Below are positions 1-29,690 of a DNA stretch of 41,379 nt, in pieces; positions within the stretch are counted from its first letter, which is position 1, and the number at the start of each line of letters is the position of its first letter. Position numbers and translations under genes: made by a program. The DNA comes from Opitutaceae bacterium (GTDB taxonomy: Bacteria > Verrucomicrobiota > Verrucomicrobiia > Opitutales > Opitutaceae): the NCBI GenBank assembly GCA_028284235.1, contig JANQSC010000035.1:1-41379 (forward strand), read 5' to 3'. The notes under the pieces were generated by a model. The model saw nothing but the letters and a program-made list of their open reading frames with translations, was not told the origin of the DNA and searched no databases.

Positions 1-325
1 GCGAGACTCTTGTACGAAACACCGGCCGTCGGCCTAGCCCCGACCCTGTCGGGGATGGGTGTCTGCGACGCAGACAATGGGTTTATAAATCAAATCCTCG
101 AGTATCAGCGCTCTCCTAATCCTAATCTTAATCATACTCCTAATCCCACACCCCCCAGCTCCCTTCTGGTTTGGATTAAGAGTATGACTTTAGATGGATC
201 GCCCGAGCGAACAGCCAACTCCTCGAGAAACAGAGACCTACTGGCTCCACAAAGTGGAGACACCCATTTCCTTCCGCAGGAAGGAACTAGCGATCCCGTC
301 AGAGACGGGTGAGCGATGTTGAAAA
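1..325 (+). repeat. Family I hairpin-chain repeat, copy a (possibly cut by window start)
   Basis: First of five copies of an intergenic repeat of about 300 bp. Six perfect hairpins, all with 3-nt loops, are visible: GGCC-GTC-GGCC (24-34), CCCCGAC-CCT-GTCGGGG (38-54), GTCTGC-GAC-GCAGAC (61-75), CTCCAC-AAA-GTGGAG (245-259), TTCCTTCC-GCA-GGAAGGAA (268-286) and CCCGTC-AGA-GACGGG (295-309). Between the third and fourth lie hexamer arrays of NTAATC type (116-145) facing a shorter GATTAN array (174-185). ATGGGT is duplicated around hairpin 3 (55-60, 77-82) and AGCGAT around hairpin 6 (289-294, 312-317). The copy ends in TGTTGAAAAC. No transposase or credible ORF lies inside it. Confidence 0.85.
55..82 (+). 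repeat. Mini-hairpin unit flanked by ATGGGT direct repeats (filled site)
   Basis: A 16-nt unit (61-76) made of GTCTGC-GAC-GCAGAC plus A sits between two exact copies of ATGGGT. The equivalent place in copy b (6199-6204) has one ATGGGT and no hairpin, and the sequence then continues colinearly. Copies d (13545-13572, degenerate) and e (13898-13925) are filled. The pattern resembles insertion with a 6-bp target duplication, or precise loss by slippage between the repeats. Confidence 0.7.
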
Positions 326-341
326 CTCCCGGAACGCTTCG

Positions 342-402
342 GCGACCTCGGCGTCCCCCGCGGTTCAAGAACTTCCTTGTGACTCTTAACCGCGGAGGTC
401 GC
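342..402. repeat. Imperfect inverted repeat downstream of the giant surface-protein gene
   Basis: Two arm pairs are visible: GCGACCTC (342-349) with GAGGTCGC (395-402), and CCGCGGTT (358-365) with AACCGCGG (388-395). The right arm resembles the AACCGC-GAGG-type intergenic repeats often seen in bacterial genomes. It lies between repeat copy a and the terminator of the minus-strand gene. Function unknown. Confidence 0.6.
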
Positions 403-466
403 TGAGGACGCGGAGATTCTGGCATTGAGTATTTGAATACAGGATACACGACTGGTCTCCAAGCCT

Positions 467-492
467 AAAAAAAGGCCGGGTTGCCCCGGCCT
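467..492 (-). terminator. Rho-independent terminator of the 1820-aa gene
   Basis: Read on the minus strand, AGGCCGGG (492-485), loop GCAA, CCCGGCCT (480-473) is followed directly by a run of seven T (473-467). An 8-bp GC-rich stem, stable tetraloop and T tract 28 bp past the stop codon make this a textbook intrinsic terminator. Confidence 0.92.
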
Positions 493-519
493 CCGGATTC
501 CTGGTCCGTTTAAATTTCG

Positions 520-3500
520 CTAAGGAGCAATTACTTTCACGTTATCGACGTAGAAGATGGATTGGCCCCCTCCCTCCGCGACGAAGCGCACTTTCGAAAT
601 CTCGCCCAGGCCATAGAGGTCGATCGAGACTACAGTCCAGCTGCTCCCGGCGCTCTCTTCCCAGACAACCGTCCAGGAGTTTCCGTCGTACACTTCCACC
701 CGCCCTTTCCGACTCGAATGCGGGGATAGATAATAATAGTCGAAATCAAGGCGCCCGTCGGAAACGGGAGCCGAAAGCTCGCGCTCAATCTGAGAAGGAG
801 TATTAAATCCGATCCGCGCGTATCCGGGGTTGGAAGGGACGTCACAATCGCCGGTAGGTGCCCACGACCCGCTCCATCCCGAGCCACCTGTCCAGTCGCC
901 GCTTCCAAACCCGTGTTTAGCGGCGATCGCGCCAACGTCGACTTCAACAATCGCGCTGTCGGACACCACTCCATCGGTAACGCTGACAACCACCTGGTTC
1001 GGGCCAGCGTCCGCCGCGCTTGGAGTGCCTGAGACAATCCCGCTGGACGACACCGAAACCCAGCTCGGGCCCGACAGTTTGGAGTAGGCCAGCGTGCCTG
1101 ACCCCCCGTACGACACAGCGCCAGACACGTCGGCGCTGAAGAACTCGTCCGGCAAGGCAACTCCCCCGTGAGTCGGGTCCTCGTCGAAGCCGAGGTCGCT
1201 TTTCACGTTTATCCTTATCGTGGCGGAGTCCGAGCCGTCCGACCCCTTCGCCGCGGCCACTTCAAAGACGTTGATCCTGATGTCCGAAACGCCCGGCGTC
1301 CCCGAGAGAGTCCCGTCGGAGCCGACCGTCAGCCAGGCGGGGCCGGAGGTCTTCGAGAAGCTCAAGGGGCCGCTTCCCCACGTGGTCACGTCGTCCGACA
1401 GGCTGCCGTTGAAGGCCCGCCCGTAGTAGACCCAGCCCGCGCTGAAGGAGCCCGAGTCGAACTCCACTGCCGCGTCCAGCACCGTTACCGCAACCGTCGC
1501 GGTGTCGGAGTTGGCCCCGCGCGCCGCTGTCGCCGTGAACGTGCGCGAACCCGCGTCGGCTGCCGACGGCGTGCCTGAAAGACTGCCGCTTGTGTCGGTC
1601 GTCAGCCAGGAGGGCACGTCCGAATATGAGAACTGCAGCGAGCCGGACCCGGTAGACGTGACCTTGTCGGCGAGCGCGTATTGGAACCCCTCCCCGCTAA
1701 CAACCGACCCCGCGTCGAAGGACTCCGAGTCGAACGCGACTACGCCGTCCACGACCGTGACGGAGAAAAGCGCGGTGTCCGACACCCCGTCTACAGTCAC
1801 CCTCACTTCAAACGTGTTCTCGCCAATGTGGGAGGGGCTTGGATCTCCCCACAAATGATAGGGAAACCCAAGGTACGAAGCAACCGTCACCCAACTGGGG
1901 CCCGACGTTTTCTCCGAAGTTACATCATCCCAATCGGCAGACGTGTCCACGTAGGGTCGAATATTTTGAATAGCGAACGTGCTGCCCCCTTCGCTGTGGT
2001 CGACCACCCCCAAATGATACGAATCCGCCGTAAAGTAAGCGGCATGGCCCGTTGCGATGCTGAACGTCGCGTCGACGTCGCCCAGCGACGGATGGGTCAT
2101 CCGAACCGTCCATTGCTGCGAGCCGGTCGTTGTAGGCGCGCCCGAGAGAGACCCGTCGCTGGCTATCGTTAGCCAGTCGTCCGAGCTCGGGCCGGATACT
2201 TTCGAGAAAGTCATACCCTCCGTTCCCACGCTGCTGGCGACATAATTCAAAAGGTTGTCTTCGTACGGCGTGTTCCAGTTCGCGGCAGCAGGATCCGACG
2301 TTAGGTAGGCATGGTCGCGCACGCTAATCGACAACACAGCGGTCCCCGCAGCGCTTCCTTGCCCGGAGTTGAAGGCGACCTCGAACGTATTCTCTCCAAC
2401 AGTGTCTGGAACGCCGGAAAGAGTCCCGTCGCTGGCGACTGACAGCCATGACGGGCCGCTCACCTTCGTGTAATTCAGAGACAGGCCGGAGTTCGATACG
2501 TAGTTGGAAAGAGCGTCGGAGTAATCGACGCCCCATAGCCCAGCGGCGCCCGTTATCGCTCCCTCCGAGTCCTGTTCGAAGTACGCATTGTCGAGCGTAG
2601 TGATACGAAGCGTGACGTCCACCGGCGCGACTGACGGGTAATCCAGCCGAACGGTCCATTCCTGGAGACCGGTTGTTGTGGGCGTGCCCGTGAGCGTGCC
2701 GTCGCTGGCTATGGTCAGCCAGTCATCCGAACTTGGCCCCGAAACCTTGGTGAACGTGGGCGTCAGCCCAGGGGGGCTAGCGATATAGTTTTGAAGATCG
2801 CCGACGTAGGGCGCCCCCCAAACGGAATCGGGAAGAACGATCGGGTCTTCGACGAACGTCAACATGTCAACCTGCTCGTCCAGGTTATAGAAGCCAACGT
2901 TGTCGATGAACAGGTACTCGGATGCAGCCGAGTGACTGCTATCAGTCGTATACTTGAACTTGACGGAAACGACAATGTGATCGCTCAAGTCGATGCTCAC
3001 TCTTTTCAGAGCATCCGGCTCGCCATGCAGATCGGAGCCATAGACAGCCGAGTCCCAAACCGTGACCTCTTGTTGCTGACCATCTGGTAGGGAAACAGTC
3101 ACAACCGATACCTCGAAACTGGAATTGCCTCGCTCGCCGTCTAGGTCGTAGTCGAACGCCAGGACCCATCCCCAGGCCAATCGATCCAGACTACGCCTAA
3201 GCACATTCGTAGTCGAGTGACGGGTGTTGTCGTAGAGCTTGGCTACCGCGTTGTCGCCAAAGTAGTGAATATCCGCTTTGACGTAGTCGCCACCAGTCTT
3301 CCATTTCCCGCCCCATCCACTGCCTCCCGAGAACAGGCCGCTCTGGAACCGGTCGAAGATGTCGCTGTTGTGGCGATAGAGTCCGACACTACAGCTTCCA
3401 ACGTAAAGGACACCTTCCTTGGACACATGTATAGTACTGACCGTGAGCCAATCAGGAAGCTCGTCCGAACTCACAGTATCGTGCATGTTAGACCAGGTTC

Positions 3501-5982
3501 GGCCCCAGTCCTCGGAGAAGTAGACGGGTTGAAAAGTACCGCCGCCAAAGTAACCGGTATTCACATTGAAATTCGGTTCATTCCAGTCCGACAATGTGCG
3601 CTTGTCAGTAGTCTTAAATGCATAGGCTAGCCCATTGATTCTCGGGTCGAACTGGACCCCTCCGATGAAATAGGCCTCCTCGCCGGCGAGACCGAAGTGG
3701 ATGCTGGGGTCGAGTCCCTCGTTGTTGACGGACCAATCGCCAGCGGAGCCATCCGACGCCGTTGCGTTGAACTCGTAAACGCCAAGACGTCCACCCATAA
3801 GGACCCTCAACGATCCACCTTCGTGAGGATCGTGTTCGGGTCTTGGATCTATCGCGATCGCATGACGGGTGTCATTGAACATGTCGAAGGACACTGGATA
3901 GTAGTCGAGAGTATTACCGTTAGGTCTGGTAGCGGCTTCTTTATTCGGCTTGGGCATTTCAACCCAAGAGGTCCCTCCGTCGATCGTCGCATAAAGAGCC
4001 CAGGAGTCGCTCGCGACATCATCTCGATTTGGAGTGGCCACCGCAATCTCGCCATTCTCCGACGATACAGCGAATACCATCATTGGCTCGCCGAGAGTGT
4101 TGGCGGTTTCTCGAAAAGTAACGCCGTAATCGTCGCTCATCAGGCTGCCCATGTATACGTATTCATCGACCGCATACACTTCACCAATCGTGCCATAATC
4201 GTATTCATCTTCATCGAATACAGCGACACCGCTGAGAGGATCGCCGCCTTCGTCGTCAATCATGGTTATCGTCCAATCGTTGTCACTGCCGACCTGATTG
4301 ACATCCATCAAGTAGCCCACCGCCGAATGGGCGCTAATCGCCTGATAGCCGCCCGTGGCGCTTTCATTGAACGCAATTCCGATGCCCCTTCTCCTTTGGC
4401 CTCCGGCATCAACTCCGTCATTCGAAGCCTTGTCTTCCGCCCGCTTCATGTCATCGGTATTATAAGCTGTGTAACCCTTCCACGAGAGCCCTCCATCAAT
4501 GGAGAGAGCCAGCCCATACTCGCCAAGCGCGACTCCAATCACGTCACCCCCGTACCCCGTGTTGATCTGGCTCACCCATTTCGTCTCTGCGCCAGTAGTG
4601 AAATGCGTACCGTTTTCCCCATAGTCCTCGCTCTTGAATATTGGTCGGTCTTTCGCTGTCGATTGCCAAACGACCGTCGATGCGTTCATGAAACCCACCG
4701 CATGCCCCTGGCTACGGATACCGTTGGACGCGTCGAGCCAATTGTTTGCGACATGGTGCTGCTCGGGATTGCCTTGAACGAGAGATTTCACTCCCCCAGA
4801 TGAGACTTCGCGCTCCTGATCATTCCAGGTCTCGCCTCCATCGTTGCTCCACACGAAGCTGAACGCAGCGTCGCCCCCTCTCGGAACCACCCAGTGAGAA
4901 TCGTTGCACGGGTTAACGAAAATCGCGCCCAACTCATCAACGCTTTCATGGGAATTGTCCAACAAGAGATCTGTGAAAAGCGTATCGCCTTTGTCCTTAA
5001 AACCATACAATTCAGCTCCACCAGTGCTTTCTCCATATAACCCGGAACCGTCGCGTATTACGAATCCTCTACCTCCAACGTGATTGACCTCAACGTCCGC
5101 GATATCGCTTTCCTCGTTAGCGACAACAACCGGCCCGACTTTGATCTCGCCCGTGTTCTTTATTTCAATACGGTAGAGCTTTCCATGCCTGTATCGAGCG
5201 TTGTTGTCCTCTCCCACAATAGCGTAAAGCCGTGTGATGTCGTTTGTGCTTACCCCAGCAGCTAATGTCTTCACGTACTGATCCTCGAATGCAAACACGG
5301 ACCAAGTACCCAAATCACCGCCCTCTGTGGACCTCATAAGCCCTCTTGTGCCGGACGCGAAATACACGTGGTCGGCACGGTTAGGAGATGGATCGACTAG
5401 CAGGATTCGTTTCCCGTAGAGCCCAGGCCACTCCCCTCGATCGTCACTCCCAGGATTCTCCGGAAGCTCCAGCACGTGTTCCCAACTAGAGCCCGTATCC
5501 GTTGTTCTCCAAATGCCAAAGGGATGACCAGATTCCCAATGCTGGGAGCTCGTCCTGAAACCGTAAACTCCAAATGCCAACGCCCCGTCGTGAGGGGAGA
5601 AACCAAACGCGGTACCCGCCCGTCCCGATTTGTTTCCACTCGGGAAGAAGTTCACTCCGTCCTGAGCCACCAGCGTTTGACCCACTTGGTTTCCCGCTTG
5701 GATCATGAAGTTCGGATTGGCGGGAGAGACGCCAAAAAAATTCACTTTCTGACCACGCATTTCCCCGCCGTATTCCAGGAAGCCGTCGTTTTTGTGCTTC
5801 TCGCTCGGGAAAGTGATCCGCGTCCAGCTTTCGGCGAAAGCCGAACGCGCGGAACTCAAAGCCGCCAGCAGCAAAACGAGCGCGAAGAGCGGATTACGGT
5901 AGACTGACTGGGACAGACGATTAATCGGGGGTTCTCTATTTCTCATGGGGGTTGGGCTGCGCTTGCCCGTGTGGGACTTCAT
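520..5982 (-). CDS. Giant secreted Asp-box propeller / He_PIG repeat protein
   Basis: 1820 aa with an N-terminal signal peptide (hydrophobic core around residues 32-48, ending SARSAFA). ATG at 5982 was chosen; Met13 (5946) is an alternative. Residues about 50-900 are a BNR/VPS10/GH74-like propeller region with repeated Asp-boxes, for example TTDTGSSW, SNDGGETW, SIDGGLSW, TIDGGTSW and SEDWGRTW. Residues about 1040-1690 hold roughly seven putative-Ig (He_PIG/cadherin-like) repeats with the pattern SGPSW-x-SDGTLSGTP. A jelly-roll/MAM-like module with GGSGWxGxW occurs twice, at about 925-1040 and at the C-terminus (1700-1820), bracketing the Ig array. No PEP-CTERM, T9SS or LPXTG anchor is seen. 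Glycan binding or cleavage (sialidase- or xyloglucanase-like) is possible, but no catalytic residues could be assigned. Monocistronic, with its own strong terminator. Confidence 0.88.
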   Translation of the reverse strand: MKSHTGKRSPTPMRNREPPINRLSQSVYRNPLFALVLLLAALSSARSAFAESWTRITFPSEKHKNDGFLEYGGEMRGQKVNFFGVSPANPNFMIQAGNQVGQTLVAQDGVNFFPSGNKSGRAGTAFGFSPHDGALAFGVYGFRTSSQHWESGHPFGIWRTTDTGSSWEHVLELPENPGSDDRGEWPGLYGKRILLVDPSPNRADHVYFASGTRGLMRSTEGGDLGTWSVFAFEDQYVKTLAAGVSTNDITRLYAIVGEDNNARYRHGKLYRIEIKNTGEIKVGPVVVANEESDIADVEVNHVGGRGFVIRDGSGLYGESTGGAELYGFKDKGDTLFTDLLLDNSHESVDELGAIFVNPCNDSHWVVPRGGDAAFSFVWSNDGGETWNDQEREVSSGGVKSLVQGNPEQHHVANNWLDASNGIRSQGHAVGFMNASTVVWQSTAKDRPIFKSEDYGENGTHFTTGAETKWVSQINTGYGGDVIGVALGEYGLALSIDGGLSWKGYTAYNTDDMKRAEDKASNDGVDAGGQRRRGIGIAFNESATGGYQAISAHSAVGYLMDVNQVGSDNDWTITMIDDEGGDPLSGVAVFDEDEYDYGTIGEVYAVDEYVYMGSLMSDDYGVTFRETANTLGEPMMVFAVSSENGEIAVATPNRDDVASDSWALYATIDGGTSWVEMPKPNKEAATRPNGNTLDYYPVSFDMFNDTRHAIAIDPRPEHDPHEGGSLRVLMGGRLGVYEFNATASDGSAGDWSVNNEGLDPSIHFGLAGEEAYFIGGVQFDPRINGLAYAFKTTDKRTLSDWNEPNFNVNTGYFGGGTFQPVYFSEDWGRTWSNMHDTVSSDELPDWLTVSTIHVSKEGVLYVGSCSVGLYRHNSDIFDRFQSGLFSGGSGWGGKWKTGGDYVKADIHYFGDNAVAKLYDNTRHSTTNVLRRSLDRLAWGWVLAFDYDLDGERGNSSFEVSVVTVSLPDGQQQEVTVWDSAVYGSDLHGEPDALKRVSIDLSDHIVVSVKFKYTTDSSHSAASEYLFIDNVGFYNLDEQVDMLTFVEDPIVLPDSVWGAPYVGDLQNYIASPPGLTPTFTKVSGPSSDDWLTIASDGTLTGTPTTTGLQEWTVRLDYPSVAPVDVTLRITTLDNAYFEQDSEGAITGAAGLWGVDYSDALSNYVSNSGLSLNYTKVSGPSWLSVASDGTLSGVPDTVGENTFEVAFNSGQGSAAGTAVLSISVRDHAYLTSDPAAANWNTPYEDNLLNYVASSVGTEGMTFSKVSGPSSDDWLTIASDGSLSGAPTTTGSQQWTVRMTHPSLGDVDATFSIATGHAAYFTADSYHLGVVDHSEGGSTFAIQNIRPYVDTSADWDDVTSEKTSGPSWVTVASYLGFPYHLWGDPSPSHIGENTFEVRVTVDGVSDTALFSVTVVDGVVAFDSESFDAGSVVSGEGFQYALADKVTSTGSGSLQFSYSDVPSWLTTDTSGSLSGTPSAADAGSRTFTATAARGANSDTATVAVTVLDAAVEFDSGSFSAGWVYYGRAFNGSLSDDVTTWGSGPLSFSKTSGPAWLTVGSDGTLSGTPGVSDIRINVFEVAAAKGSDGSDSATIRINVKSDLGFDEDPTHGGVALPDEFFSADVSGAVSYGGSGTLAYSKLSGPSWVSVSSSGIVSGTPSAADAGPNQVVVSVTDGVVSDSAIVEVDVGAIAAKHGFGSGDWTGGSGWSGSWAPTGDCDVPSNPGYARIGFNTPSQIERELSAPVSDGRLDFDYYYLSPHSSRKGRVEVYDGNSWTVVWEESAGSSWTVVSIDLYGLGEISKVRFVAEGGGQSIFYVDNVKVIAP

Positions 5983-6144
5983 TTAGTTGTTGAAGCCAGA
6001 CACGGGACCAGCGACCTGATGAAAGGAGCCCCAATTCTAGCATCCCCAGCGCCCGATCCGTTAAGAAACTTGCCGCGCTTAATGGGAGAAAAAGGGCGCC
6101 AAAGCCCCGGATACACCCACCTTGCAATTGTGCATTCACATTGA

Positions 6145-6460
6145 AACGAGGACGCGTGCGCGAAACACCGGCCGCCGGCCTTGCGCCTCTCCGAGGCGAT
6201 GGGTTTACATCAAATCCTCGAGTATCAGCGCTCTCCTAATCCTAATCTTAATCATACTCTTACTCCTAATCACCCCCAGCTCCCCTCTGTTTTTGATTAA
6301 GATTATGATTAGGATTAAGAGTATGACTTTAGATGGACCGTTCGAAGGGTTGATTTGCGACTTATCAAAACCTACTGGCTCCACAAAGTGGAGGCACCTA
6401 TTTCCTTCCGCAGGAAGGAACTAGCGATCCCGTCAAAGACGGGAGAGCGATGTTAAAAAC
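6145..6460 (+). repeat. Family I hairpin-chain repeat, copy b (lacks hairpin 3)
   Basis: Hairpins: GGCC-GCC-GGCC (6170-6180), CGCCTC-TCC-GAGGCG (6184-6198), CTCCAC-AAA-GTGGAG (6379-6393), TTCCTTCC-GCA-GGAAGGAA (6402-6420) and CCCGTC-AAA-GACGGG (6429-6443). The second hairpin occupies the place of CCCCGAC-CCT-GTCGGGG in copy a: different stem, same 3-nt loop. ATGGGT occurs once (6199-6204) with no following hairpin. Hexamer arrays are long here: left 6236-6271 (six units), right 6295-6330 (six units, GATTAA/GATTAT/GATTAG type). Ends TGTTAAAAAC. It lies in the 5' region between the giant surface protein and vapB. Confidence 0.85.
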
Positions 6461-6510
6461 TTCACCTTTTTCGTGCCCACTCACGGGCGTCCATGTACTC
6501 CATAAGTATG

Positions 6511-6526
6511 ACCCATATATATGGGT
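6511..6526. promoter_or_regulatory. 16-bp perfect palindrome, likely VapB(C) operator
   Basis: ACCCATAT/ATATGGGT is a perfect 16-bp palindrome centred 43 bp upstream of vapB, and its right end abuts the -35-like TTGACT. Ribbon-helix-helix antitoxins of VapB type bind palindromes over their own promoter, so this is the obvious autoregulation site (inference from position and symmetry). Confidence 0.7.
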
Positions 6527-6556
6527 TTGACTATATGGCTAGATTGCCGATATTAG
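6527..6556 (+). promoter_or_regulatory. Candidate vapBC promoter, possibly leaderless
   Basis: TTGACT (6527-6532) and TATTAG (6551-6556), or ATATTA one base earlier, are separated by 17-18 bp. Transcription would begin at about 6562, which is the vapB ATG itself. No Shine-Dalgarno sequence precedes that ATG, so the transcript may be leaderless. Inferred from sequence only. Confidence 0.5.
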
Positions 6557-6561
6557 AGTGC

Positions 6562-6807
6562 ATGAAGACTACAATCGACATCTCCGACAGTCTGTTGCGA
6601 AAAGCGAAGCAACTCGCAAACGCTCAAGGCATCACCCTTCGCAGCCTGACCGAGGAGGGCTTAAAGAAAGCGATCGCGGAACGCTCCGCTCGCAAACCCT
6701 ACAAAGCCCGGCCCGTTACAGTGCGGGGGAAAGGGCTTTCAAAGGAATTCCAAAGCGCCACCTGGGAACGCATCCGCGACGCCTCGTACGAGAGCCATGG
6801 CTCATGA
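6562..6807 (+). CDS. vapB: VapB-type antitoxin
   Basis: 81 aa. The N-terminus MKTTIDISDSLLRKAKQLA is the ribbon-helix-helix signature of VapB/DUF2191 antitoxins: a short DNA-binding beta strand followed by an amphipathic helix. The basic, flexible C-terminal half (about residues 45-81) would wrap the toxin. The start at 6562 gives the family-typical N-terminus; the frame is open upstream, but that extension has no family features and would overlap the operator palindrome. The stop codon overlaps the toxin start in ATGA (6804-6807), implying translational coupling. Expected to neutralise VapC and repress the operon through the palindrome at 6511-6526. The pair lies between repeat copies b and c. 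Confidence 0.9.
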   Translation: MKTTIDISDSLLRKAKQLANAQGITLRSLTEEGLKKAIAERSARKPYKARPVTVRGKGLSKEFQSATWERIRDASYESHGS

Positions 6808-7241
6808 TTGCCATCGACACCAACCTCTTGATCTACGCCCACCGGGAGGACGCCGAATTCCACAAACAAGCCATCAAGGCTCTATGCGATTTATCGGAAA
6901 GCGACCAGCGCTGGAGCATTCCCTGGCCCTGTATCCACGAATTTGTCGCGATTACCACTCACCCGAAGATCTTCGACCCTCCGAGCCCGATCGCCAAAGC
7001 GCTCCAGGCGATCGAGGCCTGGCTCGACTGTCCTCGCTGCGAAACCATCGGAGAGGAAACCGGGTACTTCAGCGTCCTCCAACAACTCGCGACCAAAGGG
7101 AAAGTAGTGGGCCCGATGATACATGACGCCCGCATCGCCGCCATCTGCATCAACAACGATGTCCATGAACTCTGGACCACCGATCGCGACTTCTCTCGCT
7201 TTCCCTCTCTGAAAACCCGCAACCCCATCATTTCCTCCTGA
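6804..7241 (+). CDS. vapC: VapC-type PIN-domain ribonuclease toxin
   Basis: 145 aa, one PIN domain over the full length. The acidic metal-binding residues are all present: D5 (in MIAIDTNLLIYA), E46 (CIHEFV), D109 (MIHDARIAAI) and D127/D129 (TTDRDFSRF). The protein is therefore predicted to be an active Mg-dependent endoribonuclease; VapC family targets are tRNAs or 23S rRNA. The start overlaps the vapB stop by 4 bp (ATGA). The length is normal for VapC and the frame is intact. Just 3' of the stop begins a 5'-truncated copy of the same repeat that precedes vapB. Confidence 0.93.
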   Translation: MIAIDTNLLIYAHREDAEFHKQAIKALCDLSESDQRWSIPWPCIHEFVAITTHPKIFDPPSPIAKALQAIEAWLDCPRCETIGEETGYFSVLQQLATKGKVVGPMIHDARIAAICINNDVHELWTTDRDFSRFPSLKTRNPIISS

Positions 7242-7267
7242 AACAAGCCGCAACTTGTCCACTTCAC

Positions 7268-7480
7268 TTTTAGTCTCAATCCCAATCACCCCGACTCCCT
7301 TCCGGTTTTGATTAAGAGTATGATTAGGATTAAGAGTATGACTTTAGATGAATCGCTCGAACGGTTAGCGAACTTCTCGAGCAACAAAAACCTACTGGCT
7401 CCACAAAGTGGAGACACCCATTTCCTTCCGCAGGAAGGAACTAGCGATCCCGTCAGAGACGGGTGAGCGATGTTAAAAAC
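7268..7480 (+). repeat. Family I hairpin-chain repeat, copy c (5' truncated)
   Basis: Begins in the hexamer zone, with the 5' hairpins absent. It has a right array of GATTAA/GATTAG-type units, then CTCCAC-AAA-GTGGAG (7398-7412), TTCCTTCC-GCA-GGAAGGAA (7421-7439) and CCCGTC-AGA-GACGGG (7448-7462), ending TGTTAAAAAC. It follows the vapC stop by about 30 bp and precedes the 3' end of the minus-strand sensor gene, where its hairpins could also act as an RNA 3' end. Confidence 0.83.
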
Positions 7481-7509
7481 ACACTCGCTCATCCGTATCC
7501 AGACTTCAA

Positions 7510-10500
7510 TCACTTAAGACCGCTTTCGCGCAACGCTTCGCCGCGAGCATGACTGGCACCCCCCGTCTGCGTCGAATTGCTGGCTCGGGCGTTTCTCTCG
7601 AACTGGGCTTTATAAGCCGAGGGTCGGCAGTGGTAGGCGGCTTTAAATAGTTTGCCGAAGTAGCTTGCATCGCTGAAACCGGTACAGTCGGCGATTTCAG
7701 AAACGCTGTGGACGTCCTCGAGCAGGAGCTCGGCGGCCCGTTTCAATCGTAGCTTCTGGATAAGGGACACTGGCGTCTCTCCCGTAACCGCTTTTATCTT
7801 ACGGCCAAGCGTATAACGGCTGGTGCCGAGTTTTTCCGAAAGCAAGGGCACGCCCAGATTCGGGTCGGCCAAATGGTCGCGTATGATTCCCATCGCTTCG
7901 CTAACGAATCTGTTTTCGATGGATTCCGCCCCAGGCCGCTTCAAGGGCCCTCCGGGCTTGAGGAAATCCTCGCGAAAACGCTGTATGGCGCACGATCGCG
8001 TTTCGAGCCGATTTTGGATCTTTAGCTTCAAGTACGCGGGCCGAATTGGCTTGGCAACATAGTCGTCGGCTCGGGCCTCGAGACCGAGGATCGCCTCCCG
8101 ATCGGAACCGAGCGCGGTGAGCATAATGACGGGAATGTGGTTCGTGGTATCGTCAGCCTTAACCGCTTTGCAGAGTTCGCGGCCATCCATTTCCGGCATC
8201 ATCACGTCCGTGAGGATCAGATCGGGAATCTCGCTACGCGCCAACTCCAGCGCTTGCGAGCCGTCTTCCGCTTCGAGGATCCGATACGTATCGCCCAACT
8301 CCTGACGAAGAAAGGCCCGGATATCGGGATCGTCGTCCGCGATCAATATCGCCCGGTCCTCCCGATCGCTCGCCTCGGAACTAGGCCGTTCAATCCCCTC
8401 GGGAGAATCCTTCGCCTCGACCCAGGGAAGCCGCAGCGTAAAGCGCGTGCCGCCCGTTTCACCAGCCGGACTTTCCACTTCGATTCGCCCATGCAGAGAC
8501 TTCGCCAGCGAGCGGACGAGCGAAAGTCCCAGTCCTGTACCTTTCTCCTCCTTTTTCCAATCGACCGAGCCCGCCCGGTAGAACGGGTCGAAGATCCGCT
8601 CTTGCTCGTCCGGAGCGATACCGACCCCCGTGTCGGTGACGGATAGGTTCAAGCTTCGGGCCGCCGGCTCCCCCGATAGCTCCACCCGGACGACTCCCTC
8701 TGGGGGCGTATATTTGATCGCATTGGAGAGCAGGTTGTTCACGATCTTGCAGAGTTTTTCCTCGTCGAGCTCCACCACGAGCCGCTCGAACTGGGAATGA
8801 AACAAGAGCGTTTGTCGCTTCTCACGAGCCGCGAATTCGTGCAGTGAAACGACTTCGCGCAGAAACTCGACGAAGTCGCCCTCCGTCGTCCGCGCAGGCG
8901 GATCCTCGCCTTCGTATTTACGGAAATCCAATAGCTGGTCCACCAGACGGATCGTTTTCTTCGCCCCTTTCAAAGCGAGCGCAAGCTGGTCGCGAATCGC
9001 CGGCTGGTCGATCTTGCTCAAAGCGCTCTCCAACGGGCCGGCGATCACGGTCAGAGGCGTCCGCAGTTCGTGGGAGATCTGAGTGAAGAAACTCAGTTTC
9101 ACCTCCTCGATCTCGCGAATATGGCGTATCCGAATTCTTATTGTATTCACAATGAGAAACACGACCAAAGCCAGCAAAGTTGACAGTGTCGCCACAAACC
9201 AAGGACGCTTCCAAACCGGAGGGATGACAGAGAACGCCACCGCTGCGCCTGCGGCTTGCATGTTTCCGTCGAGATCCTTCGCTCGCACTTCGAAACGATG
9301 GTCGCCGGCAGGGAGCATGGCGATCGTGTGATTGGTCACGCTGGAGAACGGACTCCATTCTCCCGAGCCGAACCGGAACGAGTATCGAAGGGAATCCGCG
9401 GGCGTATGCCCCCAAGGATCGATTCCCCGCCAAGCGAAGTAGGCGGCGCCGGATTCCGCGATCTTGTCCGGAACCGTCGTGAACCGGACAACCGGCGGCG
9501 TTTTTTCCGGAGTGTAGCGAATCGTCCTAACGGGATTTTGACCTTTCGGATTCGCAAACTGATTGATCCAGATCGACCCGTCCTCGCTTTGCCTCAATGT
9601 GGCCTTTTCTCGGGAAAGAACCAGCCCTCGGCCGAACGGCATATGGGACCATTCACCTTCTTGGAAACGGGCGATCCCCGTCTGAGTAGCCGCAATTACC
9701 CCATCGGGCAATTGCCTGTCTTGCAACAAGTACACCACGCGGTTCAAGTCGAGTTGGCTATTCCGATCAAAGAGGGTCGATCCTCGACTTTCGAACCGGT
9801 ATAAGCCCGTCCCCCAAAGGGGAATCCAAAGCGCGCCCTGTCGATCAACCAGGAAACGCTTAAATTTCATCTGTTTATCAAATCCATCTAGGAACGTCCG
9901 GAAGGGGGCGCCCGGTTTGTCTTCCTGTTTGAACAGGCCAAACTGGCCGGCAATCAAAAGATCGCCCTGCTTCGACCACCCGATTCTTCGAACGCGACGT
10001 TCAGGGGAGCGTAGTCGGGGGTCGTCTACGCGTCTCATGGAATCGCCCTCGCGCCGCAAGCGTATCATCCCTTCGTTCCCTGGTGGCTGCTCCTCCTCAA
10101 CCAGGGAACCGTTCCCGAGCAAGATATCGCCATCGTCCAGAACGCAGGCCGAGTCGTAGGAGAAGCGAAAGCCCAACTCCGGATAGCGCTCTCGAACCCA
10201 ACCATCGCCCCGCCAGAACGCCGCGGCGGAGCGCTCGCCGTCCGACCCGAACGCCCATACCGTGTCGTCCGAAGAACGAACAAGACCGGCGGGCGTGTCG
10301 ATACACCCAGGCAGCGCTCGCCACTCGCCCGTTCTCGGGTGGTTCGTCACGATCTCTCCATTTAGCGAGATAAACCACAGGTTTCCATCGCGGGTCTCGC
10401 ACTGGAACACAAGGTCGGAGTAACTCGTCCAACGCTGGTTCGAAGTGTCAATCTCGTACACGTTCGAGTCCGGCCCGCCTATGAGGCAGTTTCCGTTCTT

Positions 10501-11436
10501 GCGTTTGAGAAAGAACGTCTGCCGATTCGGGGCAAGGTACTCCGAGGACTTCAACGCGGCCCATTGCCCTTGAGATTGGTAGACAAGTGAATCTGCAAGG
10601 CGGATGACGAGATCACCGTTCGGCAGGGAGTCTATCCAGTGTTCGGGCGTCTTTTTCGTACCCGTATCCAGACCCATATGGACCGGGGTCCATTCATTTG
10701 CCCACTCGTCAAAAACGAAGGCGAAACTCGAATCGTCCGCGCTCGTGGCCCAGAGCGTCCCCCGTCCATCGACGCAAATCGACCGGTGGCCTTTCTTCAG
10801 TCTGCCCAGTTCGAACGAGGACCATGTCCCGCTTCCAACAGGAACTCCCGCCTCGAGGAAACATCGATAGATTCTGCCCGTCTTTTCCTCCGTAAACCAG
10901 AGGGAATCGTTGTGTTTCACAAGAGAGCAAACCGCTCCCCGCGTCCGTTTCAATAAAGTCGATTGGTCACCATATAGTAGATACAGTCCCGATTTGTTGC
11001 CAACAAGCACGGCCCCATTGTCCAGCTCTAGCAGGCATTGCGGGGCGTCTAGTCTGCGTCTGTACTCGAGGATTCGTCGCCATTCTCCATTCTCGAAACA
11101 GTAAATCCCTTTCACATGGCTAACGAAAATACCGCCACCCCGACTGGCGAGTATCGCGTGAGGAATGAAAGCAGTCCTTCCATCGGGATAGGGGCGCGAC
11201 TCCAAATCAACGCCGTCAAAGGAGTGAATCCCCTCTCGGTCGGCAAACCAAAGCGTTTCGTCCTCGTCTTCAGCTACGCAAACGAACTCCCGGCCTTGCA
11301 AGGCCTCCAGCTCATTCCAACGCCATCTCTCCGACAAGGGACTCGGCGAGGCAGGGGGGACATACGCCACCGTGCCCGCGCCAAATGACGGGGCGAAGGC
11401 AAGGAGCAACAGGAAAATACAAGAAGGAACACGCAT
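7510..11436 (-). CDS. Hybrid two-component sensor / AraC regulator (HTCS-type)
   Basis: 1308 aa: a whole signalling system in one chain. Signal peptide (1-20); periplasmic two-component-regulator propeller repeats (about 25-650) and a Y_Y_Y domain (about 655-722); one membrane segment (about 742-767); histidine kinase with H-box SHELRTPL (H789), N-box NNLLSNAIKY (about 902), DTGVGIAP and GTGLGLSL; receiver with ILIADDDPD, phospho-acceptor D1077 in LTDVMMPEMDG and the AKPIRP lysine (about 1028-1135); AraC-type helix-turn-helix (about 1175-1275). All key residues are present. HTCS proteins sense oligosaccharides in the periplasm and switch on nearby polysaccharide-use genes. The divergent sulfatase (12014) is the closest candidate target; no SusC/SusD or glycoside hydrolase accompanies it here. 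Confidence 0.95.
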   Translation of the reverse strand: MRVPSCIFLLLLAFAPSFGAGTVAYVPPASPSPLSERWRWNELEALQGREFVCVAEDEDETLWFADREGIHSFDGVDLESRPYPDGRTAFIPHAILASRGGGIFVSHVKGIYCFENGEWRRILEYRRRLDAPQCLLELDNGAVLVGNKSGLYLLYGDQSTLLKRTRGAVCSLVKHNDSLWFTEEKTGRIYRCFLEAGVPVGSGTWSSFELGRLKKGHRSICVDGRGTLWATSADDSSFAFVFDEWANEWTPVHMGLDTGTKKTPEHWIDSLPNGDLVIRLADSLVYQSQGQWAALKSSEYLAPNRQTFFLKRKNGNCLIGGPDSNVYEIDTSNQRWTSYSDLVFQCETRDGNLWFISLNGEIVTNHPRTGEWRALPGCIDTPAGLVRSSDDTVWAFGSDGERSAAAFWRGDGWVRERYPELGFRFSYDSACVLDDGDILLGNGSLVEEEQPPGNEGMIRLRREGDSMRRVDDPRLRSPERRVRRIGWSKQGDLLIAGQFGLFKQEDKPGAPFRTFLDGFDKQMKFKRFLVDRQGALWIPLWGTGLYRFESRGSTLFDRNSQLDLNRVVYLLQDRQLPDGVIAATQTGIARFQEGEWSHMPFGRGLVLSREKATLRQSEDGSIWINQFANPKGQNPVRTIRYTPEKTPPVVRFTTVPDKIAESGAAYFAWRGIDPWGHTPADSLRYSFRFGSGEWSPFSSVTNHTIAMLPAGDHRFEVRAKDLDGNMQAAGAAVAFSVIPPVWKRPWFVATLSTLLALVVFLIVNTIRIRIRHIREIEEVKLSFFTQISHELRTPLTVIAGPLESALSKIDQPAIRDQLALALKGAKKTIRLVDQLLDFRKYEGEDPPARTTEGDFVEFLREVVSLHEFAAREKRQTLLFHSQFERLVVELDEEKLCKIVNNLLSNAIKYTPPEGVVRVELSGEPAARSLNLSVTDTGVGIAPDEQERIFDPFYRAGSVDWKKEEKGTGLGLSLVRSLAKSLHGRIEVESPAGETGGTRFTLRLPWVEAKDSPEGIERPSSEASDREDRAILIADDDPDIRAFLRQELGDTYRILEAEDGSQALELARSEIPDLILTDVMMPEMDGRELCKAVKADDTTNHIPVIMLTALGSDREAILGLEARADDYVAKPIRPAYLKLKIQNRLETRSCAIQRFREDFLKPGGPLKRPGAESIENRFVSEAMGIIRDHLADPNLGVPLLSEKLGTSRYTLGRKIKAVTGETPVSLIQKLRLKRAAELLLEDVHSVSEIADCTGFSDASYFGKLFKAAYHCRPSAYKAQFERNARASNSTQTGGASHARGEALRESGLK

Positions 11437-12013
11437 GAGCCGAAGGTCGCGCCAATGGCGGGCGTTTCGCCTGACGGGGTGACGACCCGTGAATGCGAGC
11501 GGCGGAGTCGAAGAGTTCGATTAATAGGGGGACTTGAGCACGCTCAATGCTCGCCCGGATCCAAAGTTCTAGCAAGTTGAATTCGCTTCAAAACCGGCTA
11601 GAAACTGAGCGAAAAATGAACATAACATGAATCCAACAGCCCATCATTCGCTCCTCCGCCCCAATTCAGATGGGATTGCCGTTGCGAGGGATACAAACGC
11701 GTCGAACATCAAGCTGGAGAGTCCACTCTGAGACACAGACACCGACAATTGAAACCGACGCAATACACCGCCTTCGCTTCGCGCTTTACTCGCCGGTACA
11801 GACCCTAAAACTTGTCTCAAACTTGAAGGACATTGAACACGCGCCTCGCGGGTCCGATATCCCTAAGCTTAGCCACCAAGTGGCGAACGAAAGCGCGCTT
11901 CATATCCCGTCTAGTGATCCGAGTGATCTCTCATCCTGCTACCGCAAAGCGGTATTCTGTTAAACTAACTTTCAACACCGTCCAAGAACTCACATCCAAA
12001 TTCAAACCACTCT
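11437..12013. other. Divergent intergenic region, sensor gene / sulfatase
   Basis: 577 bp between two divergent start codons, with no credible ORF. The right-hand third holds a degenerate mini-hairpin chain (11870-11965, listed separately). The rest (11437-11860) shows no repeat or RNA motif I can name. Promoters and any binding site for the AraC domain of the sensor should lie here, but I could not define one. Confidence 0.6.
11870..11965 (+). repeat. Degenerate mini-hairpin chain ending CTGTTAAAC
   Basis: Two perfect 5-bp stems with 3-nt loops: GCCAC-CAA-GTGGC (11872-11884) and ACCGC-AAA-GCGGT (11941-11953). The second is bracketed by related octamers, ATCCTGCT before and ATTCTGTT after (6 of 8 identical), and the locus ends CTGTTAAAC like the other hairpin chains. 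It shares architecture but little sequence with family I. It lies 49 bp upstream of the sulfatase start, so it may be in that gene's 5' leader. Confidence 0.55.
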
Positions 12014-13507
12014 ATGATTCCGCGCATACTGATTTCCTTCCTTGTTTTGATCTCCGTCGCGAACACTCAAGCCGAAGAGCGCTCCCCGCCCGTGGTGAGC
12101 GACTCGACTGAACGCGTCGAAGGCATGTCGAAACCAAACTTCATCGTCATTTTCTGCGACGACCTCGGCTACAACGACGTTGGCGCCTACGGGTCCACGC
12201 TACACCGCACGCCCCATATCGACCGCATGGCGCGCGAGGGTCGCGTCTTCAGCGATTTCTACGTCACCAGCGGTGTCTGCACCCCCTCCCGCGCCTCGCT
12301 CATGACCGGCTGCTATCCGAAACGCGTCAACCTGCACGAAAACGAAAAAAACGGATGGGTCCTTTTCCCCGGAAACCAGAAGGGAATTAGCTCCGACGAG
12401 ATCACCCTCCCGGAAATCCTCAAAGCCGAGGGCTACGCGACCGCGATTATCGGCAAATGGCACCTTGGCGACCAGCCCGAGTTCTTTCCGCTCAGCCACG
12501 GCTTTGACTACTACTACGGCATCCCCTACTCCAACGACATGGGGCTGATACGAGGGAACGGGGAGCGCCACGGGCTATCCAGAGACCGTCCCGGCGAACT
12601 TCGCTACCCGCCTCTGCCCCTCATGCGGAACAACGACATCATCGAGCTCGAGCCCGACCAACGCCTCATCACTCAGAAATATACACAAGAAGTTATAAAG
12701 TGGATACGCGCCCACAAACACGAACCCCTCTTCCTCTACTTCCCCCAAACCATGCCTCACGCTCCTCAATACTCTTCTGAGAATTTTGCCGGAAAGTCGG
12801 CCAACGGAAAATGGGGCGACACCGTCGAGGAAATCGACTGGTCCGTCGGCGAAGTGCTCAAGGAGCTCGAAGCCCAAGGCATCGACGACAAGACCATGGT
12901 CGTATTCCTCTCCGACAACGGGGGAGCCATGAATTGGGGAGCCAGCAACTATCCGCTCAAAGGAGGCAAAGGAACGACTCACGAAGGCGGCCATCGTGTT
13001 CCCTTTATCGCCCGATGGCCCGGGACGATCCCGGCGGGCACTCATAGCAGTCAGCTCGCGACATCCATGGATCTCCTCCCCACGATCGCCAAACTCGCCG
13101 GAGGCGAAGCGCCCACCGACCGCATCATAGACGGGAAAGACATCAAGCCACTCCTCACCGGAAAGAATAGCGCTCAGTCGCCCCACAACGCGTACTACTA
13201 TTACTACCGCGGCCGGCTCGAAGCGGTTCGCAGCGGCGACTGGAAGCTGACCGTCGAAAAAACCGTTACGCGAAGAGGGGAGACTATCGAGTATCCACTC
13301 GCTCTATACAATTTGAAAGACGACATCGGCGAAACTGAAAACGTCGCCAACGACCACCCCAAAGTGGTCGAACACCTGCAAACGCTACTCGCCGAGGCGC
13401 GCGTCGACCTCGGCGATGACCACCCGGACTACCAAACGCCCGGCAAAAACACCCGCCCATCCGGATTCGTCGAAGACGCCGTCTTCCTCCGTGGCAAACC
13501 GGATTAA
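12014..13507 (+). CDS. Secreted type I sulfatase (formylglycine-dependent)
   Basis: 497 aa with a signal peptide (1-20, cut after NTQA). The alkaline-phosphatase-fold sulfatase core is complete: metal-binding D49/D50 in FCDDLGYNDVG, the canonical formylglycine motif C89-T-P-S-R93-A, GKWHLGD, a PHAPQ segment and FLSDNGG with its metal ligands, then KGGKGTTHEGGHRVPF in the substrate pocket. The Cys needs conversion by a maturation enzyme (FGE or anSME), none of which is encoded here. It probably removes sulfate from a polysaccharide or oligosaccharide in the periplasm; the substrate cannot be told from sequence. It is divergent from the hybrid sensor, a plausible activator. Family I copy d starts 2-3 bp after the stop codon. 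No Shine-Dalgarno sequence is seen. Confidence 0.95.
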   Translation: MIPRILISFLVLISVANTQAEERSPPVVSDSTERVEGMSKPNFIVIFCDDLGYNDVGAYGSTLHRTPHIDRMAREGRVFSDFYVTSGVCTPSRASLMTGCYPKRVNLHENEKNGWVLFPGNQKGISSDEITLPEILKAEGYATAIIGKWHLGDQPEFFPLSHGFDYYYGIPYSNDMGLIRGNGERHGLSRDRPGELRYPPLPLMRNNDIIELEPDQRLITQKYTQEVIKWIRAHKHEPLFLYFPQTMPHAPQYSSENFAGKSANGKWGDTVEEIDWSVGEVLKELEAQGIDDKTMVVFLSDNGGAMNWGASNYPLKGGKGTTHEGGHRVPFIARWPGTIPAGTHSSQLATSMDLLPTIAKLAGGEAPTDRIIDGKDIKPLLTGKNSAQSPHNAYYYYYRGRLEAVRSGDWKLTVEKTVTRRGETIEYPLALYNLKDDIGETENVANDHPKVVEHLQTLLAEARVDLGDDHPDYQTPGKNTRPSGFVEDAVFLRGKPD

Positions 13508-13509
13508 AA

Positions 13510-13815
13510 AACAACGGCCGTTGGCCTTGTGCCTCTCCGAGGCGATGGGCGCCTGCTACGCAGACAATAGGTTTAATTCAAATCCTCGAGTATCAAGCGC
13601 TCTCCTAATCTTAATCATACTCTTAATCCTAATCACTTCTCGTTTTGATTAAGATTATGATTAGGATTAAGAGTATGACTTAGACGGATCGTTCGAGCGA
13701 ATGGCTAGCTACTCGAGCAACAGAAGCCTACAGGCTCCACAAAGTGGAGACACCCATTTCCTTCCGCAGGAAGGAACCAGCGATCCCGTCAAAGACGGGT
13801 GAGCGATGTTAAAAG
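13510..13815 (+). repeat. Family I hairpin-chain repeat, copy d
   Basis: Hairpins: GGCC-GTT-GGCC (13516-13526), GCCTC-TCC-GAGGC (13531-13543), CTGC-TAC-GCAG (13553-13563, degenerate form of hairpin 3), then CTCCAC-AAA-GTGGAG, TTCCTTCC-GCA-GGAAGGAA and CCCGTC-AAA-GACGGG (13735-13809). The flanks of hairpin 3 are ATGGGC (13545-13550) and ATAGGT (13567-13572), a decayed duplication. Hexamer arrays: left 13605-13634 and right 13647-13676; 13617-13634 pairs perfectly with 13659-13676 (18 bp). Ends TGTTAAAAG. It directly follows the sulfatase stop and sits in tandem with copy e. Confidence 0.86.
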
Positions 13816-13843
13816 ACTCCACTCCTCCCGCATCCAGCCTGAA

Positions 13844-14125
13844 TCGAGACTCTTGCACGAAACACCGGCCGCTGGCCTAGCCCCGATCGTGTCGGGGATG
13901 GGTGTCTGTTACGCAGACAATGGGTTTACATCAAATCCTCGAGTATCAAGCGCTCTCCTAATCATAATCTTAATCATACTCCTAATCCTAATCACCCCAA
14001 CTCCCTTCCGGTTTTGACTAAGAGTATGATTAGGATTCAGATCATGACTTAAATTGATCGTCCGAAAGACCAATTATCGAATTCTTAGACACTCGCTCAA
14101 ACGGGACGAAGACGAAAGCGTTGTT
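13844..14125 (+). repeat. Family I hairpin-chain repeat, copy e (3' half diverged)
   Basis: Starts CGAGACTCTTG like copy a. Hairpins: GGCC-GCT-GGCC, then CCCCGAT-CGT-GTCGGGG and GTCTGT-TAC-GCAGAC, the last two each with a T-G wobble next to the 3-nt loop. Exact ATGGGT flanks hairpin 3 (13898-13903, 13920-13925). Convergent hexamer arrays follow (about 13956-14045). The three 3' hairpins of the other copies are missing and the end is diverged (TTGTTTTAAAAAC). 14126-14211 holds nothing recognisable. Confidence 0.8.
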
Positions 14126-16400: not shown

Positions 16401-16436
16401 AGGGAGCCGCCGATACAATGCACCCCCGCCAGTTAA

Positions 16437-16552
16437 AACCCGCCGGGACGGCGGGTTCCACCTTCTTCAAGCGGACCCAAAGGTGGAACGCGCCAGCCTG
16501 CCTCGGCATAGCCCCAGCGGGGCGAAGACGGGTCCCGGCGCGTTTGTTCAGT
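16437..16552 (+). repeat. Family II two-hairpin element, copy 1 (with internal insertion)
   Basis: Hairpin A: arms AACCCGCCG / CGGCGGGTT with 3-nt loop GGA (16437-16457). Central inverted pair TTCCACCTT (16456-16464) / AAGGTGGAA (16480-16488). Hairpin B: left arm AACGCGCC (16487-16494), right arm CGGCGCGTT (16536-16544). In this copy about 40 bp interrupt hairpin B, and within them lies a further perfect hairpin GCCCC-AGC-GGGGC (16511-16523). Related copies at 22348 and 33631 lack that insertion. It lies between the converging ends of the SGNH hydrolase and aroE genes and may serve as a bidirectional 3' end. Confidence 0.82.
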
Positions 16553-22347: not shown

Positions 22348-22425
22348 AAACCCGCCGGGACGGCGGGTTCCACCTTTTTCAACTTGCGCGATAGGTGGAA
22401 CGGGCCGTCCCGGCACGTTCGTTCG
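22348..22425 (+). repeat. Family II two-hairpin element, copy 2
   Basis: Hairpin A arms AACCCGCCG / CGGCGGGTT, loop GGA (22349-22369); central TTCCACCT (22368-22375) / AGGTGGAA (22393-22400); hairpin B arms AACGGGCCG / CGGCACGTT with loop TCC and one mismatch (22399-22419). It lies in the 164-bp spacer directly upstream of the dehydrogenase start and downstream of the SGNH-like gene, so it would be transcribed between the two. Confidence 0.85.
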
Positions 22426-29372: not shown

Positions 29373-29690
29373 CTTGAGGTAGAATCAACAGGATACGCCC
29401 CGTCACTGTCGGGGCTACAGGATGCCTCTGCGAGCCAACAGGATGATTCTAAGAAAATTGATATCCTGCCCCTGCAAAGCAGGGATCCTGTAGCGAGGTA
29501 CGAGCGTATCCTGTTAAAATAAATTAGTAACAGGATGCGTTCATCCGTTTCACGGACTCACTCGCTTGATCCCGTCTTCGCGGGAACTTGATATCGGCCA
29601 GGTCAAGTCTAGTAGTTAACTCAGTCTAGTCATCAAGTCGGCTCGAAGAGCCATCAAGTAGCGAGGTACGAGCGTATCCTGTTAAAAATA
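29373..29690 (+). repeat. Family III mini-hairpin chain with bracketing direct repeats
   Basis: This locus fills most of the spacer after the DUF1501 gene. Hairpins: GCCCCG..CGGGGC (29397-29415, loop ACT after one T-T mismatch), CTC-TGC-GAG (29426-29434), CCCTGC-AAA-GCAGGG (29470-29484), TCCGT-TTC-ACGGA (29544-29556), TCCCG(T)..(G)CGGGA (29570-29585) and GGCTC-GAA-GAGCC (29640-29652). Flanking direct repeats: ACAGGAT (29388, 29417, 29438), ATCCTG (29463, 29485, 29508), CTTGAT (29565, 29587), AGTCTAGT (29606, 29623) and CATCAAGT (29631, 29652). A 29-bp segment (29491-29519) recurs exactly at 29659-29687, ending TGTTAAAA both times. Confidence 0.8.
29606..29659 (+). repeat. Two adjacent direct-repeat-bracketed palindrome units
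   Basis: AGTCTAGT (29606-29613 and 29623-29630) brackets the palindrome AGTTAACT plus C. Starting one base later, CATCAAGT (29631-29638 and 29652-29659) brackets a 13-nt unit containing the GGCTC-GAA-GAGCC hairpin. Both octamer pairs are exact. These are the clearest short-duplication brackets in the window. Confidence 0.75.

Follow-up and report, generated by a model that had tools for sequence, protein, structure and literature searches.

Recombination or slippage is known to remove hairpins enclosed by short direct repeats. The insertion sequence IS1397 inserts in the loop of repetitive extragenic palindromic (REP) sequences, and elements of the IS200/IS605 type, which have hairpin ends and a Y1 transposase, insert in single-stranded hairpin DNA at preferred targets, without target duplication. 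In the definition given in PMC3733652, CGTC REPs have a CGTC tag, a stem of 8-9 bp and a loop of 4-5 nt; the same source finds GTAG REPs abundant in Opitutus terrae, gives loops of 2-20 nt in general, and places some REP families inside other palindromes. The insertion sequences IS1397, ISKpn1 and IS621 are listed in PMC1525189 as targeting REPs, and the account of yeast mitochondrial GC clusters in PMC4478555 describes short units with AG or ACT repeats that undergo rapid substitution, merger and shuffling. The locus considered here (the window, 41,379 nt) is the whole of contig JANQSC010000035.1 from the Opitutaceae bacterium assembly GCA_028284235.1, and is contig C35 of this host genome (G000; 6.13 Mb, 81 contigs). 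Its left end carries a composite hairpin repeat, designated F1, in which an earlier note had seen a 16-nt hairpin enclosed by 6-bp direct repeats. G, C and L numbers denote genomes, contigs and extracted stretches; F1 to F5, M25 and M34 are names coined in this analysis; filled and empty sites are compared throughout as paralogues within a genome.

It is probable, taking the parts jointly, that the 16-nt hairpin is a resident component of F1 that has been lost from one copy (copy b), that F1 shares its design with four other repeat families, F2 to F5, and that hairpin-bearing units of another kind, M25 and M34, have spread. The finding suggests a new variant of small palindromic insertion in the same genome.

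The 16-nt unit is hp3, the third hairpin of the composite element F1, the arms of which are hairpin arrays joined by repeated linkers. The plan of F1 is AACACC-[hp1 GGCCnnnGGCC]-TAG-[hp2]-ATGGG-[hp3]-ATGGG, with an inverted arm containing three more hairpins about 160 bases on. The F1 features of the window are as follows.

24-34, + strand: copy a, left arm, hp1 (GGCCGTCGGCC)
38-54, + strand: copy a, left arm, hp2 (CCCCGACCCTGTCGGGG)
55-60, + strand: copy a, linker ATGGGT before hp3 (first direct repeat)
61-76, + strand: copy a, hp3, the 16-nt unit
77-82, + strand: copy a, linker ATGGGT after hp3 (second direct repeat)
245-309, + strand: copy a, right arm, an inverted array with hairpins at 245-259, 268-286 and 295-309, the last between AGCGAT repeats
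6184-6204, + strand: copy b, hp2 (6184-6198) and a single ATGGGT (6199-6204), without hp3
6379-6444, + strand: copy b, right arm with three hairpins
7321-7480, + strand: a further copy, right arm and adjoining core, with no recognized left arm
13530-13572, + strand: copy d, hp2, decayed linkers ATGGGC and ATAGGT, and a decayed hp3
13735-13799, + strand: copy d, right arm
13881-13925, + strand: copy e, hp2, ATGGGT, hp3, ATGGGT

The arrangement reported in the earlier note is present, position by position: copy a reads ATGGGT GTCTGCGACGCAGACA ATGGGT at 55-82, copy e reads ATGGGT GTCTGTTACGCAGACA ATGGGT at 13898-13925, and copy d, at 13545-13572, reads ATGGGC GCCTGCTACGCAGACA ATAGGT, while the lone ATGGGT of copy b at 6199-6204 is followed by TTTACATCAAATC and is alignable on both sides. 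Copies d and b differ by a 22-nt indel comprising hp3 and one linker. When 69-nt stretches spanning hp1, hp2 and hp3 are folded as DNA, the hairpin forms in copy a (-17.2 kcal/mol, z -3.7) and in copy e (-14.8 kcal/mol, z -3.1). Positions 9295-9329 of stretch L098, on contig C20 of the host genome, are identical to window positions 1-35; with this 35-bp overlap C20 probably joins the left end of the window, so that another F1 copy directly precedes copy a. Positions 107-190 of the window form a long imperfect inverted repeat of CTAATC/GATTAG words; such repeats belong to F1 cores and recur at dozens of places elsewhere in the genome.

The earlier note had left a choice between insertion of the hairpin with a 6-bp duplication of its target and precise loss of the hairpin, by slippage for example. 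Of 23 F1 ends, chosen by eye from 44 parser rows of the host genome (the others were taken for chance hairpins or a duplicate), 19 have a perfect hp3, 2 an imperfect one (copy d and L181:9645) and 1 an unclear one (L072:10531); 1, copy b, has none. ATGGGT serves as both hp3 linkers in 3 of the 23, and hp3 in related left arms is often TTTTCGCnnnGCGAAAA. Among the copies that have the core of b, a and e carry hp3, d carries a decayed hp3, and C20 a relic, apparently the 3' arm of hp3. The most likely account is that 22 nt, made up of hp3 and one linker, dropped out of copy b when the two ATGGGT linkers recombined or replication slipped from one to the other. This fits the pattern of losses from a filled ancestor and no gains, which the earlier note had named as the outcome fatal to a mobile hairpin, as judged on paralogues. 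A point on the other side is that identity over the core and right arm does not single out the nearest relative of b among the five core-sharing copies (88.7% for C20, 86.3% for d, 85.8% for a and 77.0% for e, with a, d and C20 at 90-92% among themselves). The argument from copy d as the closest copy to b was dropped after this comparison and confidence in the loss was lowered slightly; because the nearest copy is not singled out, the polarity of loss rests on the wider F1 family being filled.

A 16-nt hairpin that inserted in ATGGGT and duplicated 6 bp would explain why the repeats are exact in a and e and single in b, and the core-sharing copies, which do not settle the position of b, leave room for it. 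The enrichment that the earlier note expected for such an element also appeared: 6-nt repeats enclosing a 3-nt-loop hairpin, compared with 20 dinucleotide shuffles, number 30 in the host genome, over 178,748 bases of intergenic DNA (shuffled mean 4.65, maximum 7), and 12 in the congener G008, over 48,612 bases (shuffled mean 1.05, maximum 2). The count is thus upheld, but its meaning is not, since inspection by eye assigns 24 of the 30 to the family linkers ATGGGT, AGCGAT, ATCCTG and ATCAAG, on either strand or in shifted register; the remaining 6 are other sequences, near chance (4.65 expected in all). Coding DNA has no excess of 5-nt repeats round hairpins (5 observed, 4.74 expected). With permuted flanks as the control, exact 6-nt repeats are seen at 10 intergenic hairpins with 3-nt loops (1.79 expected, maximum 6) and at 2 coding ones (2.41 expected); intergenic hairpins with loops of 4 to 8 nt are also in excess. 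Duplication of random targets would give repeats that differ in sequence from site to site; no such variety was seen in the intergenic DNA of the host genome, and the repeats that enclose hp3 are reused linkers and not target duplications. With hp3 in most F1 ends, one clear empty copy, repeats that are family linkers and a null result in coding DNA, we find no support for a mobile 16-nt hairpin that duplicates 6 bp of its target, and consider it very improbable.

F1 to F5 have in common that the linkers are conserved and that the hairpin arms, as judged by eye, vary from copy to copy yet mostly pair. F2 reads GTCAYC-[hp]-TAGGA-[hp]-AATAGGA-[hp]-AATAAGG. F3 reads TTAACAGGAT-[hp]-linker-[hp]-linker plus an inverted half (10 elements, 132-209 bp); it has TTAACAGGAT terminal repeats, and the linkers flanking its hp2 are, by eye, mostly identical to each other, CTTGA or CAGGA, a match that can be a subfamily effect. 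F4 reads AACAG-[TGATCTCnnnGAGATCA]-AA-[hp]-RCAGGA-[hp]-RCAGGAT, and F5 is a simpler hairpin pair. F3 and F4 are represented in the window as follows.

29527-29685, + strand: F3 element with terminal repeats and two inverted halves; left-half linkers CTTGA/CTTGA
31636-31830, + strand: F4 element, in which the sub-stretches 31680-31701 (+) and 31764-31797 (-) resemble empty M25 sites

Intergenic hairpins with a stem of at least 7 bp favor the 3-nt loop, with 65 at that length vs 8-41 at each of the other loop lengths from 0 to 12 (439,379 bases), and coding hairpins of the same stem length are flat across loop lengths (24-36). Among 273 genomes of the order, the F4 terminus occurs 65 times in the host genome, once in G022 and not at all in the other 271; a search of named genomes for F4 gave 6 stretches, with the array only in L185 (Opitutaceae). 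L185, a 3.3-kb contig (G022:C2) of a genome from another genus, is very similar to L216 of the host genome (on contig C18, at ~81 kb), an F4 array with M25; the likeness suggests recent transfer or misbinning. The idea that the linkers are CsrA-type GGA sites was dropped, since linkers also read CTTGA or ATGGG.

M34 consists of TCCGTCTTCG, a variable hairpin and CTACGCCGnGACAAG, 30-42 nt in all, with an inner hairpin ranging from a 5-nt to a 17-nt stretch. It has 28 matches in the host genome, 8 in G303, 5 in G022 and 1 each in G001, G319, G329 and G372; the 17 outside the host genome fall in 6 of 149 other genomes, and the reversed pattern is absent from all 150. The copies tested were 26 distinct ones of the 28 and 12 distinct ones of the 17. 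M34 is found within or next to the loop of another hairpin, and its host hairpins include GTAG-type REPs (L094, L129, L162, L191). For both M34 and M25 the sequences, the counts, the matched empty copies and the clean joins are observed directly, as are the hairpins restored by removal of M34. Such removal restores a hairpin of at least 6 bp in 9 of 26 copies vs 38 of 650 swapped combinations, and none of 5000 permutations reaches 9 (mean 1.83, maximum 6); examples are TATCCGC-TTC-GCGGATA, TGCTGC-TTT-GCAGCA and GGGCGTTGC-TC-GCGACGCCC. In the other genomes, 3 of 12 distinct copies restore at least 6 bp. Empty paralogues are found at no more than 2/30 mismatches for 9/26 copies (5/78 swapped) and at no more than 4/30 for 15/26 (10/78 swapped), the best filled/empty pair, L191/L073, having 0/30 mismatches.

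M34 was first noticed in a catalogue of indels, 88 rows at 71 loci, drawn from paralogous intergenic segments, so that its count there (by a loose motif, 16 of 88 rows at 14 loci, against 0.92 for random segments, maximum 8) is descriptive and not a test. Hairpins cover at least half of the indel in 33 of the 88 rows vs 17.9 expected (maximum 26). At five loci of G303 (L273, L280, L283, L289, L292) a 5-nt inner stretch replaces the inner hairpin, and these copies are possibly the unfilled form of M34 itself. In a search for a longer, autonomous form of M34, its end motifs, with 1 mismatch allowed, lie 196-3892 nt apart in 17 pairs, which would be candidates for such a form. In viral contigs M34 occurs in 1 stretch. 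The window holds a filled and an empty copy of F5 in which the interrupting unit resembles M34 by eye.

16436-16545, + strand: F5 filled copy; the right-hand hairpin AACGCGCC...GGCGCGTT is interrupted
16495-16531 (ends approximate), - strand: 37-nt M34-like unit in the F5 hairpin, comprising CCGTCTTCG, the hairpin CCCCGCTGGGG and CTATGCCGAGGCAGGCT
22348-22420, + strand: F5 empty copy; right-hand hairpin uninterrupted, with one mismatch

M25 is a 25-nt unit, CRCCGACnnnGTCGGGGTCnnTGAC, with a core stem of 5 bp and a 3-nt loop. Within F2, F3, F4 and further repeats it breaks up linkers (RC^AGGA) as well as hairpin arms (GC^GGGA), RC^RGG being its usual site. Its exact core occurs 54 times in the host genome, where the reversed pattern is absent, and all 54 copies entered the tests (L180 looks like coding sequence). 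Empty copies at no more than 5/40 mismatches exist for 4 of 54, vs 0 of 162 swapped flank pairs, and at no more than 7/40 for 7 of 54, vs 1 of 162; the best filled/empty pairs are L239/L200 and L215/L191 (2 mismatches in 40 each), L244/L068 (4) and L068/L076 (5). The F4 element of the window differs from M25-filled copies by 8/40 mismatches (L141 and L071) and 10/40 (L192). Removing the 25 nt restores a hairpin (stem at least 6, loop 3-4) in 11 of 54 copies, with 4.91 expected and a permutation maximum of 10. M25 was recognized before the indel catalogue was made, and M25-type cores account for 19 of its 88 rows (17 of 71 loci), random segments giving 0.45 (maximum 3).

The best filled/empty pairs of M25 and M34 have no insertion duplication of more than 2 nt, the joined flanks being equal to the empty copy within 1-2 ambiguous nt, and the AG or ACT direct repeats that flank yeast GC clusters were not found at either unit. 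Looked for by eye, GTAG does not stand at the hairpin foot of F1 (TAG/CTAG), F2 (TAGGA), F4 (AACAG), M25 or M34 (none); the exception is that some F3 hp1 read CTGTAG on one strand. M25, with its 5-bp core stem, 3-nt loop and no constant CGTC, lacks the features of CGTC REPs. The host genome has a gene for a REP-associated tyrosine transposase (RAYT) at L162:9955-10760, on contig C17 at ~126 kb (NF047646, 82 bits, cut-off 80). GTAG REPs in inverted pairs (GTAGGGCCGGCGCTTGCGCCGTGCCGCG; GTAGGGC...) stand to either side of it, and gene and repeats form a REPIN-like system apart from F1-F5. An M34-bearing REP lies ~2.3 kb from this gene. By eye, no F1-F4 arrays were seen within 2 kb of Y1 matches (3 in the host genome, 3 in G008), although the 6 further Y1 loci had short flanks and guessed match positions; RAYT as a direct partner of F1-F4 was set aside, with no association seen and the C17 gene flanked by another REP family. 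M25 and M34 show no duplication and a target preference, and Y1 genes are present; single-strand transposition of the IS200/IS605 type would further call for a Y1 transposase that acts on the two units.

What may be going on can be put forward tentatively as follows: mobile DNA of 25-42 nt, without a gene, terminal repeats or target duplication, recognizes hairpins and inserts in or beside their loops, generating nested hairpins, and the same pool re-supplies the variable hairpins of the arrays. We regard this as possible. M25 and M34 themselves were probably gained, as clean insertions into other hairpins and linkers: the comparison of paralogues shows one and the same unit in dissimilar hosts for which empty copies exist. 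The target would be a loop on single-stranded DNA, and insertion in single-stranded hairpin DNA would fit because there is no duplication and because of the loop position. The units might be moved by template switching or by a transposase acting on single strands, possibly the resident RAYT. The wider reading, in which hairpins a few tens of nt long are precisely inserted in this genome, has support from M25 and M34, without a 6-bp duplication.

Several results weigh against a gain of M25 and M34 by insertion. In 15 of 26 M34 copies not even a 5-bp hairpin is restored, and at least one M34 copy's own empty match is a self-match (L210:2772). For M25, the other restoration criteria stay inside the permutation range; other removal windows restore more hairpins (16 with a shift of -4 and a length of 28, 15 with a shift of -1 and a length of 25); flanks of 11+11 nt are matched elsewhere for 30 of 54 own pairs, swapped pairs giving 24 and 23; the summed stems (84 vs 68.5, sd 13.9; 707/5000) fall short of significance; and the mean rank is 0.515, so that these comparisons fail to pick out the true flanks. 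The M25 flanks are themselves drawn from similar modules. Spread of M25 beyond the host genome is not to be read from the 40 of 149 other family genomes with 1-3 matches, about twice the reversed control (17 of 149, with 1-2), and M25 is largely one genome's. Filled and empty copies are paralogues only, the best congeneric homologue of one window protein being 64% identical. Taken together, the M25 tests are mixed, and M25 as an insertion is probable, not proven.

The main rival sets template switching between hairpins against single-strand transposition: M25 and M34 would have been copied between similar hairpins, by template switching, gene conversion or palindrome-mediated recombination, and not transposed, with shared stems promoting the exchange. 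The contexts of M25 have common CCCGC/GCGGG stems and RCAGGA linkers, and its swapped controls are high; arms vary yet pair across families, and favored arm words recur with many flanks, all of which speaks for such copying. M34, on the other hand, is cleanly joined in hosts of different kinds (loops of GTAG REPs, hairpins with TATCCGC or GGGCGTTGC stems, F1 and F4, with a look-alike in F5), and we judge copying to be rather unlikely. The notion that M25 and M34 are ancestral parts of the repeats, their empty copies being losses, draws on the loss of a small hairpin in copy b and on a polarity read from paralogues; it also needs a single unit to have been present from the start in dissimilar families, each time at another position, and to have been lost from many copies, which makes it improbable. 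That the filled junctions are artefacts of assembly or binning in a genome of 81 contigs is brought to mind by M34 copies near contig ends (C54, C73, C21) and by the close likeness of the G022 contig L185 to L216, but the many internal copies with differing flanks and the occurrence of M34 in six other genomes render this explanation extremely improbable.

The window also encodes, at 24727-27930, a PSCyt1-PSCyt2-PSD1 protein of a large paralogous family (57 matches in the host genome). A known RNA family for the hairpin repeats was rejected, as the window has no Rfam match at gathering score and one stretch and six loci gave only matches below gathering. L190:1716-1804 matches the AdoCbl-II riboswitch at 29.8 bits, short of the gathering score of 36.5.

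Should M25 and M34 prove to be genuine insertions, they would count as dispersed bacterial DNA insertions of very small size with secondary structure as their target, and would provide a natural system for the gain, replacement and loss of hairpins in chromosomes, a subject for which REPs or the GC clusters of mitochondria are the usual material. The case of hp3 adds a caution: direct repeats that enclose a hairpin are not always target duplications, and those found here are reused linkers. Among open PMC papers no report of M25 or M34 was found, three exact M34 strings included, and searches on hairpins inserted into loops gave unrelated matches only.

Set beside known systems, F1-F5 and their inserts resemble REPs, REPINs and their RAYTs, as these are presented in PMC3733652, in being intergenic palindromic repeats, often in inverted pairs, and the host genome has both a RAYT and inverted GTAG REPs; unlike them, F1, F2, F4, M25 and M34 have no GTAG tag, and the arms are multi-hairpin arrays with repeated linkers. 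Insertion in palindromic repeats is shared with IS1397, ISKpn1 and IS621, which in the description of PMC1525189 are full insertion sequences with a transposase, whereas M34 measures 30-42 nt. With miniature inverted-repeat transposable elements (MITEs) and mitochondrial hairpin elements, M25 and M34 share a non-coding, dispersed, hairpin-forming character; unlike MITEs they are short and lack the combination of terminal repeat and duplication. Yeast GC clusters, such as GC42 in the account of PMC4478555, are likewise short, palindromic and GC-rich, occupy some sites and not others, and undergo merger and shuffling; there, in contrast to M25 and M34, the setting is mitochondrial and the AG or ACT direct repeats are read as target duplications. 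M25 and M34 are bacterial and have no duplication beyond 1-2 nt, and M34 favors hairpin loops. By analogy, then, M25 and M34 would appear to work most like the yeast GC clusters, from which the missing flanking repeats set them apart.

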